From positions 472,501 through 536,500 of the forward strand of contig NC_010003.1 in the NCBI RefSeq assembly GCF_000018605.1: DNA of 64,000 nt, given 5' to 3'. Both the position numbers and the translations under genes were made by a program. The notes beneath the pieces are model-generated. The model did not search any database. It was given only the letters and a program-made list of their open reading frames with translations, and was not told the origin of the DNA. Positions 9,230 through 14,345 of this stretch are shown piece after piece (within the stretch, counting starts at the first letter, position 1; each line of letters opens with the position of its first letter). The stretch is from Petrotoga mobilis SJ95 (lineage in GTDB: Bacteria; Thermotogota; Thermotogae; Petrotogales; Petrotogaceae).

Positions 9230-10516
9230 ACGTATCGTACCCAGAAGAATCAACTAAGAAATTTAAACAAACAAGAATATATTGCCCTTAAAGAATTATG
9301 TAAGCTGTCTAAAAACCTGTATAACTCAACTCTATATGCTATTCGCCAATATTACTTTACAGAGAAAAAGTATTTACGCTACGAATCAGCCTACCATATC
9401 TGTAAAGAAAACGAAAACTATCAACTTCTTAATACAGACATTGCGCAACAAACCATGAAAGTAGTCGACCGCAACTTTAAGTCTTTCTTTGCACTTATTT
9501 CTAAGGCTAAAGAGGGCAATTACAGGTTTTCAGACATTCGACTTCCGCATTATCTTCCAAAAGATGGATACTTTATGCTGATTATCCCGCGTTTCAAGGT
9601 TAAGGGCGGTTATTTTACCGTGCCTATGTCCAATGCCTTCAAGAAGGAATTTGGAGAAGTTAAACTTCCATTTCCTGAAAGGTTAAATAGAAAGCAAGTA
9701 AAAGAAATCCGTATCTTCCCTAAGTACAACTCTAAATTCTTTGATATTGAATTTGTATATGTTCAGGAAGAAGAAAACCTTAACCTTAACACAGGTAACG
9801 CTCTTGCTATAGACTTTGGGCTTGACAACCTCGCAACTTGTGTTACAAACACTGGGGCGTCCTTTATCGTGGACGGTAAAAGATTAAAATCAATTAACCA
9901 GTGGTATAACAAAGAAAACGCAAGGTTGCAGTCTATCAAGGACAAGCAAGGGATTAAGGGTATAACCAATCGTCAATATATCAATACCAAGAAACGTAAT
10001 AACCGTCTTAACTATTATATGAACAAAACTGCAAGAATTATCGTTAACTACTGTATCGAAAACGATATTGGCAATATTGTCTTAGGCTATAACCTTGACT
10101 GGAAACGTAGCATCAATCTTGGTAAGAGCAATAACCAAAAGTTTGTCCAAATATCACATGGTAATTTGCGTCTTAAAATCAAGTCCCTTTGTGAGCGTTA
10201 CGGAATTAACTACATTGAGCAGGAAGAAAGCTATACTTCAAAGGCTGACTTTTTCGCCAACGATGATATTCCTGTTTACAATGCCGATAATCCGCAGGCA
10301 TACAGCTTTAGCGGAAAACGCATATCCAGGGGGCAATATAAAACTTGTCAAGGCACGATTATTAATGCTGATTGCAATGGTGCATTAAACATACTTCGCA
10401 AAAGTAACCTGATGGACTTAACCGTCCTACAGGCTAGAGGCTGTTTAAACCAGCCCCAAAGAATAAGGGTAATAAGCCAAACTTCTTTGAAATCCCCTTG
10501 TCCTTATTTGCCGTGA
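9230..10516 (+). CDS. tnpB: TnpB-family RNA-guided nuclease homologue (no canonical start)
   Basis: An OrfB/TnpB protein of about 428 residues. The RuvC-I Asp is in [14 protein letters not shown] and RuvC-III is in [14 protein letters not shown]. The usual RuvC-II Glu position reads [10 protein letters not shown], and the CxxC zinc finger is absent (SYTSKADFF instead); both fit the GxNxxWK subfamily. The family-like frame ([13 protein letters not shown]...) opens after a TGA at 9221 and has no ATG, GTG or TTG before the Met at 9455. GAGGTG is followed after 5 nt by ACG at 9230 or after 2 nt by ATT at 9227. The start codon may therefore be mutated, leaving either a weak non-AUG start or an N-terminally truncated product. 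Confidence 0.85.
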
Positions 10517-10559
10517 GACTGCTTTCAGGAATGGGGAAGTTTAAAGAGAGTGTTGTCAT
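10440..10559 (+). ncRNA. Candidate omega RNA / right-end guide scaffold
   Basis: By analogy with characterised TnpB systems, the RNA scaffold covers the tnpB 3' end and the right end of the element, and the guide is read from the flanking DNA. Here the region holds a long imperfect stem (CTTTGAAATCCCC at 10485-10497 with GGGGAAGTTTAAAG at 10533-10546) overlapping the tnpB stop. The flank just after 10559 begins TGCCAAAAGAGATCCCC. The left flank TTCAT would be the target-adjacent motif. The ends are approximate and expression is inferred only. Confidence 0.4.
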
Positions 10560-10807
10560 TGCCAAAAGAGATCCCCATTGTACGGTATACTCACCTGAGA
10601 ATAATGCCAATCCAAGCTGCAGGGTCATATATTTTGGTGAGCTAACAACTAACAAAGGCCAAATATAATCGTTCCATCTCCAAGTAAATGATAACACAGC
10701 CAAAGCAGCTATTACGGGTTGAGATAAAGGTATTATGATCCTCCAAAATATTTTTAATTCACTTCTCCATCGATTTTGGCGCTTTCTATCACTTCTGTAG
10801 GAAATGA
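10560..10807 (-). pseudogene. Internal fragment of the same sugar ABC permease, frameshifted
   Basis: The minus strand encodes the EAA-loop region of a MalG-type permease: FPTEVIESAKIDG in one frame, then SELKIFWRIIIPLSQPV, WRWNDYIWPLLVVSSPKY and YTVQWGSLLAM in another. One missing base near 10764, where GATGGAGCAAGTG would be expected and GATGGAGAAGTG is seen, causes the shift. Everything upstream of about residue 170 of a normal permease is gone. The fragment continues at 9115 across the IS element. Confidence 0.85.
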
Positions 10808-10849
10808 TTACCTTATAATAACACAAAATTTCAACTTATCTCTATTTTT

Positions 10850-10893: not shown

Positions 10894-11619
10894 ATGATGA
10901 TAGATATAATTGCCATTTCTGACGAGGAAATATATTTAACAAATAAAGACAAAAAAAAGTTTGACTTACTTATTTGCGCTGGAGATCTTTCTCCGCAATA
11001 CATTGATTACGTGATGAATGAATTCAAACCATCCTTAAGCTTGATGGTACATGGTAATCATGATAAAAAGTATTATAAATTATACGAAGAAGAAAATAAC
11101 TCTTTCTCAAAGGTATACAAAGGAGCTTATGTTTTAAATCATGGCATAGTTAACTTAAAAAAATTCATCGGCAAAGACATAATAGTAGCGGGATTTTCCG
11201 GTGCTTTAGCTCATGGATATAGACCTTTTTATTTCAAAGAAAAGGATATTAATAAATTTAATAGAGAGGTACGTTTCAGTACAATCTTTAAAGGTAATAA
11301 GTACAAGCAAATCGATATAATGGTTACACACAATCCTCCTTACATTAAAAATACTATAAAAAAATACGGGCAATCTCATACCCCTTCAAGAGCTTTGGGG
11401 GAGTTTTATCTTAAAGCATTTCCAAAAATTTGGATATACGGCCATATTCATCCACGATACGACTTTCAAGAACTTGATTTTGAAATTAAATTTTTAAATA
11501 ATGTATCTTATCTAATAAATGCGGTACCTTATAAATTAATAAAGTACGATGAAGAAAAGAAAGAAGTAATAGAAATTTATACTTATAAGATGATAAGTCC
11601 TAAGACCATTTTAATTTAG
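10894..11619 (+). CDS. Metallophosphoesterase-like protein
   Basis: A 241-residue calcineurin-like phosphoesterase. GDLS, VHGNHD, VTHNPP and YGHIHPR supply the second to fifth metal-binding motifs in order. The first motif, normally DxH, reads SDEE (residues 9-12), so the usual metal-binding His is replaced by Glu. The enzyme may bind its dinuclear metal site differently or have a changed activity. It is monocistronic, with its own extended -10 element. AAAGGAATTAAA precedes the first of two tandem ATGs. The substrate is unknown. Confidence 0.8.
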   Translation: MMIDIIAISDEEIYLTNKDKKKFDLLICAGDLSPQYIDYVMNEFKPSLSLMVHGNHDKKYYKLYEEENNSFSKVYKGAYVLNHGIVNLKKFIGKDIIVAGFSGALAHGYRPFYFKEKDINKFNREVRFSTIFKGNKYKQIDIMVTHNPPYIKNTIKKYGQSHTPSRALGEFYLKAFPKIWIYGHIHPRYDFQELDFEIKFLNNVSYLINAVPYKLIKYDEEKKEVIEIYTYKMISPKTILI

Positions 11620-11763: not shown

Positions 11764-11783
11764 TTAAGGGGTTTACCCCTTAA
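11764..11783 (+). promoter_or_regulatory. Perfect 8-bp hairpin in the leader of the BMP gene
   Basis: TTAAGGGGTTTACCCCTTAA forms a perfect 8-bp stem with a TTTA loop, ending 27 bp before the ATG and just before the AGGAGG ribosome site. It lacks a T-tract, so it is more likely an mRNA 5' structure or an operator than a terminator. I could not match the leader to a known riboswitch. Confidence 0.45.
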
Positions 11784-11810
11784 CGTGCCCAAAAAAAGGA
11801 GGCTAACCTA

Positions 11811-13688
11811 ATGTATAGGACCTCAAGAAGTCTCAGCAGAAGCGAGTACGAAAAAGCTAATAGATTAGCAAAGAAAGACTTTTTGGCTAATATTTCAAAA
11901 GGGAAAGAAGGATATCTGCCGTGTTTAGAAGATATCATCCACAACGCTGAAATAATTAAGGAAGAAAAACTTGGTCTTATAGATATCCCTATAGAAAGGA
12001 TCAAAGGAACGTACTACCATTCTCGTTCACTATCTTTTTCTGCAAATTTTTATCCCTTAATGAAAATTGACTCAGAATTTGCAAGTAAATGGATCAATTT
12101 GTATGAAGCTCATATATCTGAAGGAATAAGGGATCCTGTAACAGCCTACGAATATTTAAACTGGTTTTATATTGTTGAAGGGAACAAAAGGGTAAGCGTT
12201 TTGAAATATTCAGACGCTTTTTCAGTCCGTGGGGAAGTTACTAGATTGATTCCAAAATGGGATGAAAACAATCCTGAAATAAGGATCTACTATGAATTTT
12301 TAGATTTTTATAAAAAGACAAAAATTAATATAATCTGGTTCAACAAAGAGGGCAAATTCAAAGAACTTTACGAGTTAATCAAAGATTATAAGAAAAAAAG
12401 TGATTTTGTTGAGAATGAATATGATGAATTAGTCCATTCAGTATATCTTCTATTTAGAAAGCTATATAGGGAAATTGCTAAGGACACGATTTCGCTTACT
12501 GAAGAAGAGGCTTTTTTAGAATACCTAAAAAAATTTGGTTTGGAAAATGTTCCCACTATCGAAAGAGAAATGAGCGAACAAGTCAACGAATTAATAGAAG
12601 AACTAGAAGAACGTCTAGGTAAACCATCAGAACCTTTATTCAAATTACCTCAGATCTTCGCAGGGAAAACATTAAAAGTAGCTTTTCTATATAACACCTC
12701 AATAGAAGAGTCTGCATGGACATATTCCCATGAATTGGGAAGAAGGTATGTTCAAAAACGTTTAGGAAATGAAATAATAACAAAGTATTTTGAAAATATT
12801 TCTGATTTAAAAACGTATGAAAAAATATTGGAACAACTCGAAGAAGAAAAATTCGACCTAATATTTTCTACCAGTTTTGACTTCTTACAAAATCAGAACA
12901 CAAAGGAACTTCAAAATGTTCGATTCATGTATTTTTCCGGATATCGTACTACAAAGAATATTAACACATATTTCGGTCGTATGTACGAACCAAGATTCCT
13001 CTCTGGAATGATAGCAGGTGCAATGACCACTAACAATAAAATAGGTTACGTTGCTTCCTACGGTATACCTGAAGTCATAATGGGAATAAATGCCTTTGCT
13101 TTAGGGGCAAAGGCTGTTAATCCAAAAGCAAAGATATTTGTTGGATGGACGAATACTTGGCGCAATATAGAATATGAAAGAGACACGTCAGAGTATTTGA
13201 TAAATGAAATTGGAGTGGATGTTTTAACCCATCATCAAGATTCTCCGGAAGTTTGCAAAGTTGGAGAAGAATACGGCGTCTACACTATTGGTTACCATAT
13301 TGACATGAAAGATTATGCTCCAACTACCCATTTAACCTCTGTTGTATGGAATTGGGGAGTTTACTACGAAAACATAATTAAAGATGTATTAAGAGGGTCA
13401 AATTTTTCTTTATTTAGATTGTTTTCTGGTTCAGAAAAGATTGAGAACTTTTGGGGTGGACTTAAGAGTGGAGTAGTTTGTTTGTCACCTATAAGCAAAA
13501 TTGTTCCTTCTACAACAAAAAACCTTGTTGACACTGTGAAAACGGATATTATGGAAAATAGGTTTCACCCTTTCAGGGGGGGTATTTTTGATAAAGAAGG
13601 TAATATGAAAGTCTCGGAAGGCAAAGATATCTCAGACGAAGAACTAATGAAAATGGATTGGTTTGTGGACAACGTTTATTATTCTTAA
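11811..13688 (+). CDS. Cytoplasmic BMP-domain protein with ParB-like N-terminal segment
   Basis: A 625-residue two-part protein. Residues 1-280 are unlike a transporter component and include FYIVEGNKRVSVLKY (about 120-134), which resembles the ParB/Srx-type box EGNKR. Residues 290-600 resemble the Bmp/PnrA family of nucleoside-binding periplasmic proteins (LKVAFLYNTSIEESAWTY, SGMIAGAMTTNNKIGYVASYG, VGWTNTW, HHQDSPEVCKVGEEYG). There is no signal peptide or lipobox, so the binding domain should face the cytoplasm and may act as a sensor. I recall homologues of this architecture in Clostridia, where they are annotated as BMP transporter subunits; the function is unknown. The start follows AAAGGAGG. 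Confidence 0.75.
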   Translation: MYRTSRSLSRSEYEKANRLAKKDFLANISKGKEGYLPCLEDIIHNAEIIKEEKLGLIDIPIERIKGTYYHSRSLSFSANFYPLMKIDSEFASKWINLYEAHISEGIRDPVTAYEYLNWFYIVEGNKRVSVLKYSDAFSVRGEVTRLIPKWDENNPEIRIYYEFLDFYKKTKINIIWFNKEGKFKELYELIKDYKKKSDFVENEYDELVHSVYLLFRKLYREIAKDTISLTEEEAFLEYLKKFGLENVPTIEREMSEQVNELIEELEERLGKPSEPLFKLPQIFAGKTLKVAFLYNTSIEESAWTYSHELGRRYVQKRLGNEIITKYFENISDLKTYEKILEQLEEEKFDLIFSTSFDFLQNQNTKELQNVRFMYFSGYRTTKNINTYFGRMYEPRFLSGMIAGAMTTNNKIGYVASYGIPEVIMGINAFALGAKAVNPKAKIFVGWTNTWRNIEYERDTSEYLINEIGVDVLTHHQDSPEVCKVGEEYGVYTIGYHIDMKDYAPTTHLTSVVWNWGVYYENIIKDVLRGSNFSLFRLFSGSEKIENFWGGLKSGVVCLSPISKIVPSTTKNLVDTVKTDIMENRFHPFRGGIFDKEGNMKVSEGKDISDEELMKMDWFVDNVYYS

Positions 13689-14345
13689 AAATGGGTACCA
13701 AATTTTGTTGATCTCAACCCTTTCTTAGTTTATCACAACATTTATGAGCCAAGTTCGAACGATGCCGGATATCTTTCATCAACGATAGATTTAAAAAATT
13801 ATACTCTGTATTCTGAATTTCTTTTAGATCAGTATCAATTACCAACCGAAAGCCAAAGTAGCCCTCCAAACGCTTATGGGTTCATGATGGGAGGCAGAAA
13901 GAAAGGACAAAAAATAGATTATGGGATGGAGTTTTATAAGACTTCCACATGGTTGTACAATAAAGGTGAAGGTAACGAAGATTTTACTTATCCCGTTTGG
14001 AAAAATCTTCTTCTTGCGGAGGATAAAACTATAAACTACTTTCTTGGTTTCCCATATGGACCTGATGTTGAATTGTTCAAAATTTTTTTAGAAGGTGAAC
14101 ATTTTGGAATAGATTATGAACATCTAGTTAAAGGTACGATCACAATAGACACACCTTACAATGAAGAAGAATGGCAAAAGTATTCCATTCATGGACCGGT
14201 TCCACCAACTACTGTTGAAAACATTTTACGACTGGATTTTAAAATTGGAAACAATCCAACTTTTTTTACACAATCAATTTTTCGAAACAAAGATTTATGG
14301 ATGTTAGTTGGATTAGAATACACTTTCTCATTGAAAATCCCTTAA
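13689..14345 (+). pseudogene. 5'-truncated outer-membrane beta-barrel protein (Wzi-like) remnant
   Basis: The frame stays open directly from the TAA of the BMP gene and encodes about 218 residues with no usable start before the tandem ATG at 13884. The translation has barrel-like alternating strands: YSEFLLDQYQLPTESQSSPP, then GFMMGGRKKG, and a C-terminus ending in LEYTFSLKIP. The pattern recalls capsule-assembly (Wzi-type) outer-membrane proteins. The N-terminal half and signal peptide are missing. It is in the same frame as the BMP gene with one stop between them, which suggests a deletion removed the intergenic region and the 5' half. A short product from 13884 is possible. Confidence 0.6.

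Follow-up and report, generated by a model that had tools for sequence, protein, structure and literature searches.

A ParB-like protein with an exchangeable C-terminal part and its metallophosphoesterase partner in Petrotoga mobilis and other bacteria

Our analysis of a 64,000-nucleotide stretch of the Petrotoga mobilis SJ95 genome (assembly GCF_000018605.1, contig NC_010003.1, positions 472,501 to 536,500 of the forward strand; hereafter the window) points to a two-gene system. One gene encodes a fusion protein in which a ParB/Srx-type core with an invariant GxxR motif precedes a BMP/PnrA-type binding domain, without a signal-like N-terminus. The other, which adjoins it here and in several phyla, encodes a calcineurin-like metallophosphoesterase (MPE). 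Relatives carry other C-terminal parts in place of the BMP domain, and the conserved unit is therefore the ParB-like core together with the MPE. With modest confidence, we favor the interpretation that the pair is a cytoplasmic module, in which a ParB/Srx protein with an exchangeable C-terminal sensor would act with a dedicated MPE as a nucleoside triphosphate (NTP)-dependent switch. The features concerned are listed here by their positions in the window.

10894 to 11619, forward strand: calcineurin-like MPE, 241 residues (PF00149, E = 1.7e-12, 48.6 bits, cut-off 21.5)
11797 to 11802, forward strand: Shine-Dalgarno-like AGGAGG, read off the sequence 5' of the fusion gene
11811 to 13688, forward strand: fusion gene with ATG start, 625-residue protein with ParB-like domain, helical region and BMP domain
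11946 to 12260, forward strand: ParB/Srx-type domain, residues about 46-150, with a profile-profile match to relatives and block means of 91-97 in the predicted local distance difference test (pLDDT) of the model; elements E48-60, H89-103, E110-115, E118-123, H125-133 and E138-148
12177 to 12191, forward strand: EGNKR, a GxxR (P-motif-like) signature, residues 123-127
12273 to 12620, forward strand: helical region, residues about 155-270, whose counterpart in distant relatives matches DUF4032 (PF13224)
12666 to 13676, forward strand: BMP/PnrA periplasmic-binding-protein-like domain, residues 286-622

A first-pass annotation of this DNA had presented the gene as an intracellular sensor defined by its BMP domain and joined to a nucleic-acid or nucleotide-acting domain. 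The gene was found at exactly the coordinates given there. The sensor proposal agrees with the missing signal, the BMP domain and a ParB-like half with an invariant GxxR, but it overlooked the MPE, and the BMP domain, although real, is merely one of several C-terminal modules.

A constant gene pair

Gene neighborhoods of homologs, which the first-pass annotation had suggested as a check, revealed the MPE as a constant neighbor that was missing from its account of the partner. In the window's phylum the N-terminal domain was found in 21 of 103 genomes, comprising all 21 of the window's family and none of the 82 others, with a single copy in each. Strong matches to the MPE subfamily (E = 4.2e-63 or better) were found in the same 21 genomes only; other MPE matches, spread over 10 additional genomes and also present as secondary hits in two of the 21, were partial and weak (1.5e-7 or worse). 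Open reading frame (ORF) tables placed the MPE gene directly upstream of the fusion gene, on the same strand, in 21 of 21 family genomes, with the fusion gene split into two ORFs in one relative (L019). Outside the family we analyzed the best 80 loci of at least 553 confirmed relatives, nearly all of them clostridial by label (two are labeled just “bacterium”). In 78 of these 80 loci the MPE gene immediately follows the fusion gene in the same orientation; in the remaining two, L068 and L084, the contig stops at the fusion gene. The two genes are separated by a median of 25.5 bases (longest ORFs), and by no more than 100 bases in 72 of the 78. The MPE gene comes first in the window's family and second elsewhere, which argues that the pairing outlasted a rearrangement. 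Neighbor clustering in the best 80 loci found no neighbor besides the MPE in more than nine, and no transporter family above that level. This clustering undercounts because it recovered the fusion gene in 71 loci and the MPE in 63, and several of its clusters were long antisense ORFs in G+C-rich loci.

Of 299 genomes sampled from the Acetatifactor muris family, 113 carry the N-terminal domain. A query of sequence records with the window protein matched 455; among the 10 matches listed, eight cover the BMP half only and two cover at least 80% of the protein. These two are from Collinsella (BMP type with MPE) and Subdoligranulum (BMP type with an MPE recognized by profile). The fusion gene is also present in a GenBank record named “Bacteriophage sp.” (MT836456.1, L023), where its product is identical over 287 residues to Faecalibacterium prausnitzii DNA (L034); this record may be bacterial DNA. 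Taken together, the distribution suggests that a two-gene sensing module is common in gut bacteria. Current annotation names conceal this cytoplasmic system: in four annotated records with the pair the names are “BMP family ABC transporter substrate-binding protein”, “hypothetical protein” (twice) and “chromosome partitioning protein ParB”.

A ParB-like core reached through intermediate families

The first-pass annotation had pointed to VEGNKRVSVLKY within the N-terminal ~280 residues, where we indeed found it, and had treated these residues as one ParB-like segment. A ParB-like domain does lie there (residues about 46-150), but the remainder is a separate helical region (about 155-270). No mention of DUF4032, matched by the counterpart of this helical region, was found in the open-licence full texts searched. 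A Pfam scan of residues 1-280 gave chance-level matches only (best 0.22), and the relationship to ParB emerged through relatives. Profile-profile comparison aligned the fusion type with a type that carries a cysteine-rich tail over 200 columns (98% probability, E = 2.9e-13 in one comparison). The best sub-cut-off matches of relatives were to SerK (1.7e-4 for L120 and 1.4e-4 for L156), ParB partition (5e-4), Noc (1.8e-3) and a ParB-like nuclease family (ParBc_2, PF08857; 7.6e-4 for L156), while PF02195 gave 0.0061-0.078 where a match appeared, below its cut-off. Searched against the PDB, the cysteine-rich-type profile matched Spo0J (6sdk, 0.0065) and 1vk1 (0.01), ranked under many ferredoxin matches. 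The fusion profile itself matched a Tsukamurella protein (26.5 bits, 9.7e-7 per 4000 sequences) whose record carries the ParB name cited above, as well as relatives from Cetobacterium (49.8 bits) and Rubrobacter (36.4 bits); E-values from small sets (136 and 13 sequences) were replaced by bits and by E scaled to 4000 sequences. Against three ParB_N-methylase-like proteins, GxxR aligned on GxxR with a weak score (23% probability). These sequence comparisons place the core of the fusion protein in the ParB/Srx superfamily via intermediate families. The ParB-like designation thus holds at the level of the superfamily and the invariant GxxR, but not as a direct PF02195 match.

All 60 fusion proteins aligned have EGNKR unchanged. 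This alignment consists of 58 of 94 candidates (80% identity cut), the window protein and L119, and contains 13 rows from the window's family and 47 clostridial rows. A structure model built from the 60 sequences had a mean pLDDT of 86.7 and a predicted template modeling score (pTM) of 0.55, with a mean pLDDT of 69.3 for an earlier model. In the newer model the predicted order of strands and helices around E123-R127, read by eye, fits the order expected for a ParB/Srx core. With an N-terminal half of ParB/Srx type and an invariant GxxR, a nucleotide-acting domain is plausible. Among purified ParB-fold proteins in a recent study, 11 of 28 bound CTP, ATP or GTP, and a GxxR arginine-to-alanine change eliminated NTP binding; a section heading there states that NTP specificity is not reliably predictable (PMC12704722).

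A role as a chromosome-partition ParB was considered and excluded. The window protein has no helix-turn-helix (HTH) match, the genome has no PF02195 match, and no ParA family occurs among the window neighbors scanned, which are phosphoesterase, TnpB-like, permease fragment, PIG-L-like, HAD and glycosidase-like genes.

The SerK matches raise the alternative of a SerK-type core that phosphorylates a small molecule and an MPE that acts as the opposing phosphatase, with the BMP domain binding the substrate or an allosteric effector and the pair setting the level of a phosphorylated metabolite. Pairing the gene of a kinase with that of a phosphatase is a familiar arrangement, SerK is the best ParB-type model for two relatives (L120 and L156), and the D/E-G-[NH]-[HK]-R motif appears to resemble that of SerK. 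The matches score about 21 bits, however, where the curated cut-off is 380, and they center on a motif region shared throughout the superfamily; the window protein remained unmatched by the SerK model (NF053625) up to E = 1. The C-terminal swaps between BMP, Fe-S and other parts (see below) are also read more easily as sensor exchange. We consider the kinase-phosphatase alternative unlikely.

Relatives with other C-terminal parts

In 299 genomes of the Acetatifactor muris phylum the N-terminal profile found two BMP-type genes and 12 weak others. The cysteine-rich-type profile matched 286 of the same 299 genomes, because the ferredoxin tail of the profile resembles many ferredoxins, and our counts are therefore restricted to rows covering the ParB-like part. 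With plain ferredoxins excluded, 17 had a match to this part at 1.2e-10 or better: 12 matching through a cysteine-rich tail, two BMP types, one protein of 208 residues and two of 125 residues. An MPE gene adjoins the ParB-like gene in 15 of the 17, i.e., in every one over 200 residues. Four cysteines are invariant in nine of nine aligned cysteine-rich types. Seven of the 12 cysteine-rich types were scanned with Pfam, and 4Fe-4S families were found in four (L121, L127, L128 and L150) and not in L120, L122 or L149. A search of plasmid records with the cysteine-rich type as query returned four, two from Cetobacterium and one each from Tsukamurella and Rubrobacter. Both Cetobacterium records pair an MPE with a 562-residue protein whose C-terminal part has no family match, and Tsukamurella pairs one with a 288-residue protein that has almost nothing in place of the BMP domain.

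The surroundings of these genes vary. The Tsukamurella pair (L216:486-4918) lies between an ATPase gene of a carbohydrate ATP-binding cassette (ABC) transporter (ugpC) and an alpha-amylase family gene, and the Cetobacterium pair lies after a glycogen phosphorylase gene; a link to sugars is possible for these two. On the Rubrobacter plasmid (L217:2363-2842) a 159-residue ParB-like protein is encoded amid arsenic genes (ArsR-type regulators, a permease and arsM). Judged by eye, the genes for the minimal ParB-like proteins of 125 residues (L154 and L155) lie between a helicase-like and a glycerol kinase-like gene.

The phosphoesterase and a possible action on nucleic acids

The window MPE has SDEE as its motif I (D-x-E in place of D-x-H) and retains GDL, GNHD, TH and GHIH. 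D10, GD, GNHD and H146 are present in 99 of 99 aligned MPEs and GHxH in 97. The motif-I histidine is absent from all 99, being replaced by E in 89, A in nine and P in one.

Its nearest solved relatives by profile, MPPED2 (1.5e-7) and RNA lariat debranching enzyme (4.7e-6), are among the observations that could indicate that the core and MPE act jointly on nucleic acids (DNA or RNA), whether in repair, in RNA processing or in defense, with the BMP or Fe-S part as a nucleotide or redox gate; the YfcE model scored below its cut-off. A single PADLOC model, the candidate PDC-S10, matched both MPEs scanned (1.6e-12 and 2.8e-14), and the ParBc_2 match of L156 given above is to a “ParB-like nuclease” family. 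Some of the cysteine-rich pairs (L120-L129) adjoin endonuclease III-like genes and others Sir2-like deacetylase genes, as judged by eye, making a DNA-repair or NAD link possible. On the other hand, the window protein has no HTH or other DNA-binding family match, PADLOC returned no match for the three ParB-like proteins scanned, and the single copy in 21 of 21 family genomes is unlike that of a defense-island gene. We rate a nucleic-acid system as slightly less likely still than the kinase-phosphatase pair.

A BMP domain without an export signal

The PnrA/Bmp-type domain named in the first-pass annotation was borne out by PF02608, which matched residues 289-559 of the fusion protein far above its curated cut-off (E = 1.2e-49, 169.3 bits, cut-off 24.1). 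In phmmer searches the best solved relative was AtzT (6pi5, 1e-63 over residues 286-622), followed by a Brucella protein (3s99, 5.5e-59, residues 280-621). A structure search with the fusion-protein model gave VIA Z 39.9 to AtzT 6pii_A, with a root-mean-square deviation of 2.8 over 330 residues. The absence of a signal peptide was likewise upheld: the peak 15-residue mean hydropathy in the first 60 residues is 0.65 for the window protein and does not exceed 1.67 among the 60 aligned fusion proteins, versus 2.46-3.25 in 10 ordinary BMP proteins from the best-scoring loci of the window's phylum. These sequence features support a cytoplasmic location for the fusion protein, not that of a transporter subunit. 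An ordinary transporter subunit was excluded on the combined grounds of the N-terminus and the lack of recurrent transporter genes nearby.

A related proposal is that an ordinary BMP protein, left over from transport or moonlighting, lost its signal, acquired an unrelated domain at its N-terminus and now does no more than buffer cytoplasmic nucleosides. It would fit the closeness of the BMP half to purine-binding transport proteins and to ordinary BMP proteins from the window's phylum (L024 and L029). It would not fit an N-terminal motif conserved more strictly than the ligand pocket, an architecture and MPE pairing maintained across phyla, or the finding that no transporter family stands beside the gene in more than nine of the best 80 loci. 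This makes it very improbable.

The pocket was compared with the guanine-pocket residues of AtzT named in the structural report (PMC6834077). All nine residues looked up were placed by a single numbering offset, and four of the nine in this region are identical in the window protein (S355, F356, E421 and W450), with W303 replacing the stacking Tyr45. At position 421, seven of 13 rows from the window's family have E and all 47 clostridial rows have G; at position 450, 42 of the 47 have K, while W303 and D477 are constant in all 60. With these pocket positions changing and the core motif constant, the ligand probably differs between lineages.

A proposed sensor and switch

Our combined findings can be arranged into the following mechanism. 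By analogy with other ParB-fold proteins, the ParB-like core would bind an NTP via GxxR. The BMP domain would close on a small cytoplasmic ligand, in the window's genus perhaps a purine base or nucleoside, and in doing so would move the core to another NTP state. The MPE, which may be controlled by this state or coupled to it, would hydrolyze some phosphoester as the constant output. In relatives the input would come from a cysteine-rich or 4Fe-4S tail or from another region; with the sensing part varying among relatives, the output would be constant and the input variable. More tentatively, and with less than even confidence, we propose that this is a widespread signaling module, in which an NTP switch of the ParB fold, equipped with an exchangeable sensor (purine-type BMP, Fe-S/redox or other), has a permanent MPE partner with an altered metal site, whose output could be, for example, the degradation of a signaling nucleotide or of some phosphorylated metabolite.

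Several observations count against the switch interpretation. Five fusion proteins scanned (those of the window, L119, L045, L076 and Collinsella) match no ParB family, PF02195 included; the Tsukamurella, Cetobacterium, Rubrobacter and L160 relatives likewise have no ParB match in Pfam, and every individual match to ParB, SerK or Noc is weak and under its curated cut-off. Fold searches with the whole model returned only matches of the BMP half (to BMP and related binding proteins) and none of the N-terminal part, so the ParB fold stands without independent structural confirmation, and with a pTM of 0.55 the domain arrangement is not fixed by the model. In the study of purified ParB-fold proteins, 17 of 28 did not bind an NTP (PMC12704722). 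The pairing, too, has exceptions: no MPE gene adjoins those of the two 125-residue relatives (G123 and G395), a 234-residue relative (G134, 2.6e-9) or the 159-residue Rubrobacter protein, two of 17 strong MPE matches (G108 and G123) have no adjacent ParB-like gene, and the Cetobacterium MPE deviates from GNHD. Finally, R395, G425, H475 and D477 stand for T139, N169, N218 and N220 of AtzT, and the clostridial pocket changes may be compatible with a different ligand or with none.

Should the proposed switch prove correct, the ParB fold would gain a branch that searches with PF02195 miss and that comes with a defined enzyme partner, and ligand-gated NTP switching could readily be tested in a setting other than chromosome segregation. 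Under the wider proposal of a signaling module, the cytoplasm of many gut Clostridia would combine NTP switching with sensing of the periplasmic-binding-protein type.

The leader hairpin and flanking genes

The first-pass annotation had noted a perfect hairpin in the leader of the fusion gene. It is present as claimed, but it is a dispersed repeat and not a leader element specific to this gene.

11764 to 11783, no strand assigned: perfect palindrome in the leader, TTAAGGGG-TTTA-CCCCTTAA; a dispersed genomic repeat, judged to lie outside the module

The 91-base stretch containing the hairpin has a folding z of -2.8. With up to two mismatches, the palindrome occurs at 12 distinct sites in the genome (17 matches, palindromic ones being counted on both strands), in the dispersed form AAGGGG-NNNN-CCCCTT with conserved flanks; the reversed control gave none. 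At the fusion locus the hairpin is kept in two of six relatives aligned. A gene-specific regulatory leader hairpin was excluded on the basis of the 12 dispersed sites and of conservation at the locus in just these two.

Upstream of the pair lie a TnpB/IS605 OrfB-like gene (9455-10516; PF01385, PF07282) and, on the strand opposite to it, a short ABC-permease fragment (10434-10826). Downstream, at 13690-14345, is an ORF of 153 residues with no family match, at the place where L003 and L007 have a longer gene with a signal-like N-terminus. The region 3' of the fusion gene was not matched by the first ~150 residues of that gene, and the ORF is possibly a 3' remnant of a gene of the L003/L007 type.

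Comparison with known systems

The component folds are known, whereas the module is undescribed within the literature searched: a targeted full-text search of open-licence literature, in which broad queries covered best matches only, found no description of it. The closest parallel is a survey of ParB-CTPase-fold fusions, in which, as here, a ParB/Srx core with GxxR is fused to another domain and an NTP switch is proposed. That survey searched with PF02195, a model without a match in any of the five fusion proteins we scanned, and its main text contains none of the terms BMP, PnrA, phosphoesterase, DUF4032 and ferredoxin (PMC12704722, PNAS 2025).

Individual parts of the module resemble other families. 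ParB and Noc have the core relation and GxxR in common with it, and one relative is annotated as ParB, whereas the window protein lacks an HTH match and a ParA family among the neighbors scanned. SerK, an ADP-dependent L-serine kinase (NF053625), belongs to the same ParB/Srx superfamily and is the best weak ParB-type match of two relatives, but the family score is far under the cut-off, the C-terminal architecture is different, and the module gene has an adjoining MPE. The module MPEs have the calcineurin-like GDx, GNHD and GHxH motifs in common with YfcE- and MPPED2-type metallophosphoesterases but lack the motif-I histidine in 99 of 99. With AtzT and other BMP/PnrA binding proteins the window protein has the BMP domain in common, including the four of nine identical residues in the AtzT pocket region. 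Those proteins are exported and transport-linked, whereas the window protein has no signal, carries its BMP domain C-terminal to a ParB-like core and is paired with an MPE. Repressors of the LacI/PurR type also place a cytoplasmic periplasmic-binding-protein-like sensor beside an effector, and PurR was among the structure matches. Their effector is an HTH, whereas that of the system described here would be a ParB-like core together with a separate MPE.

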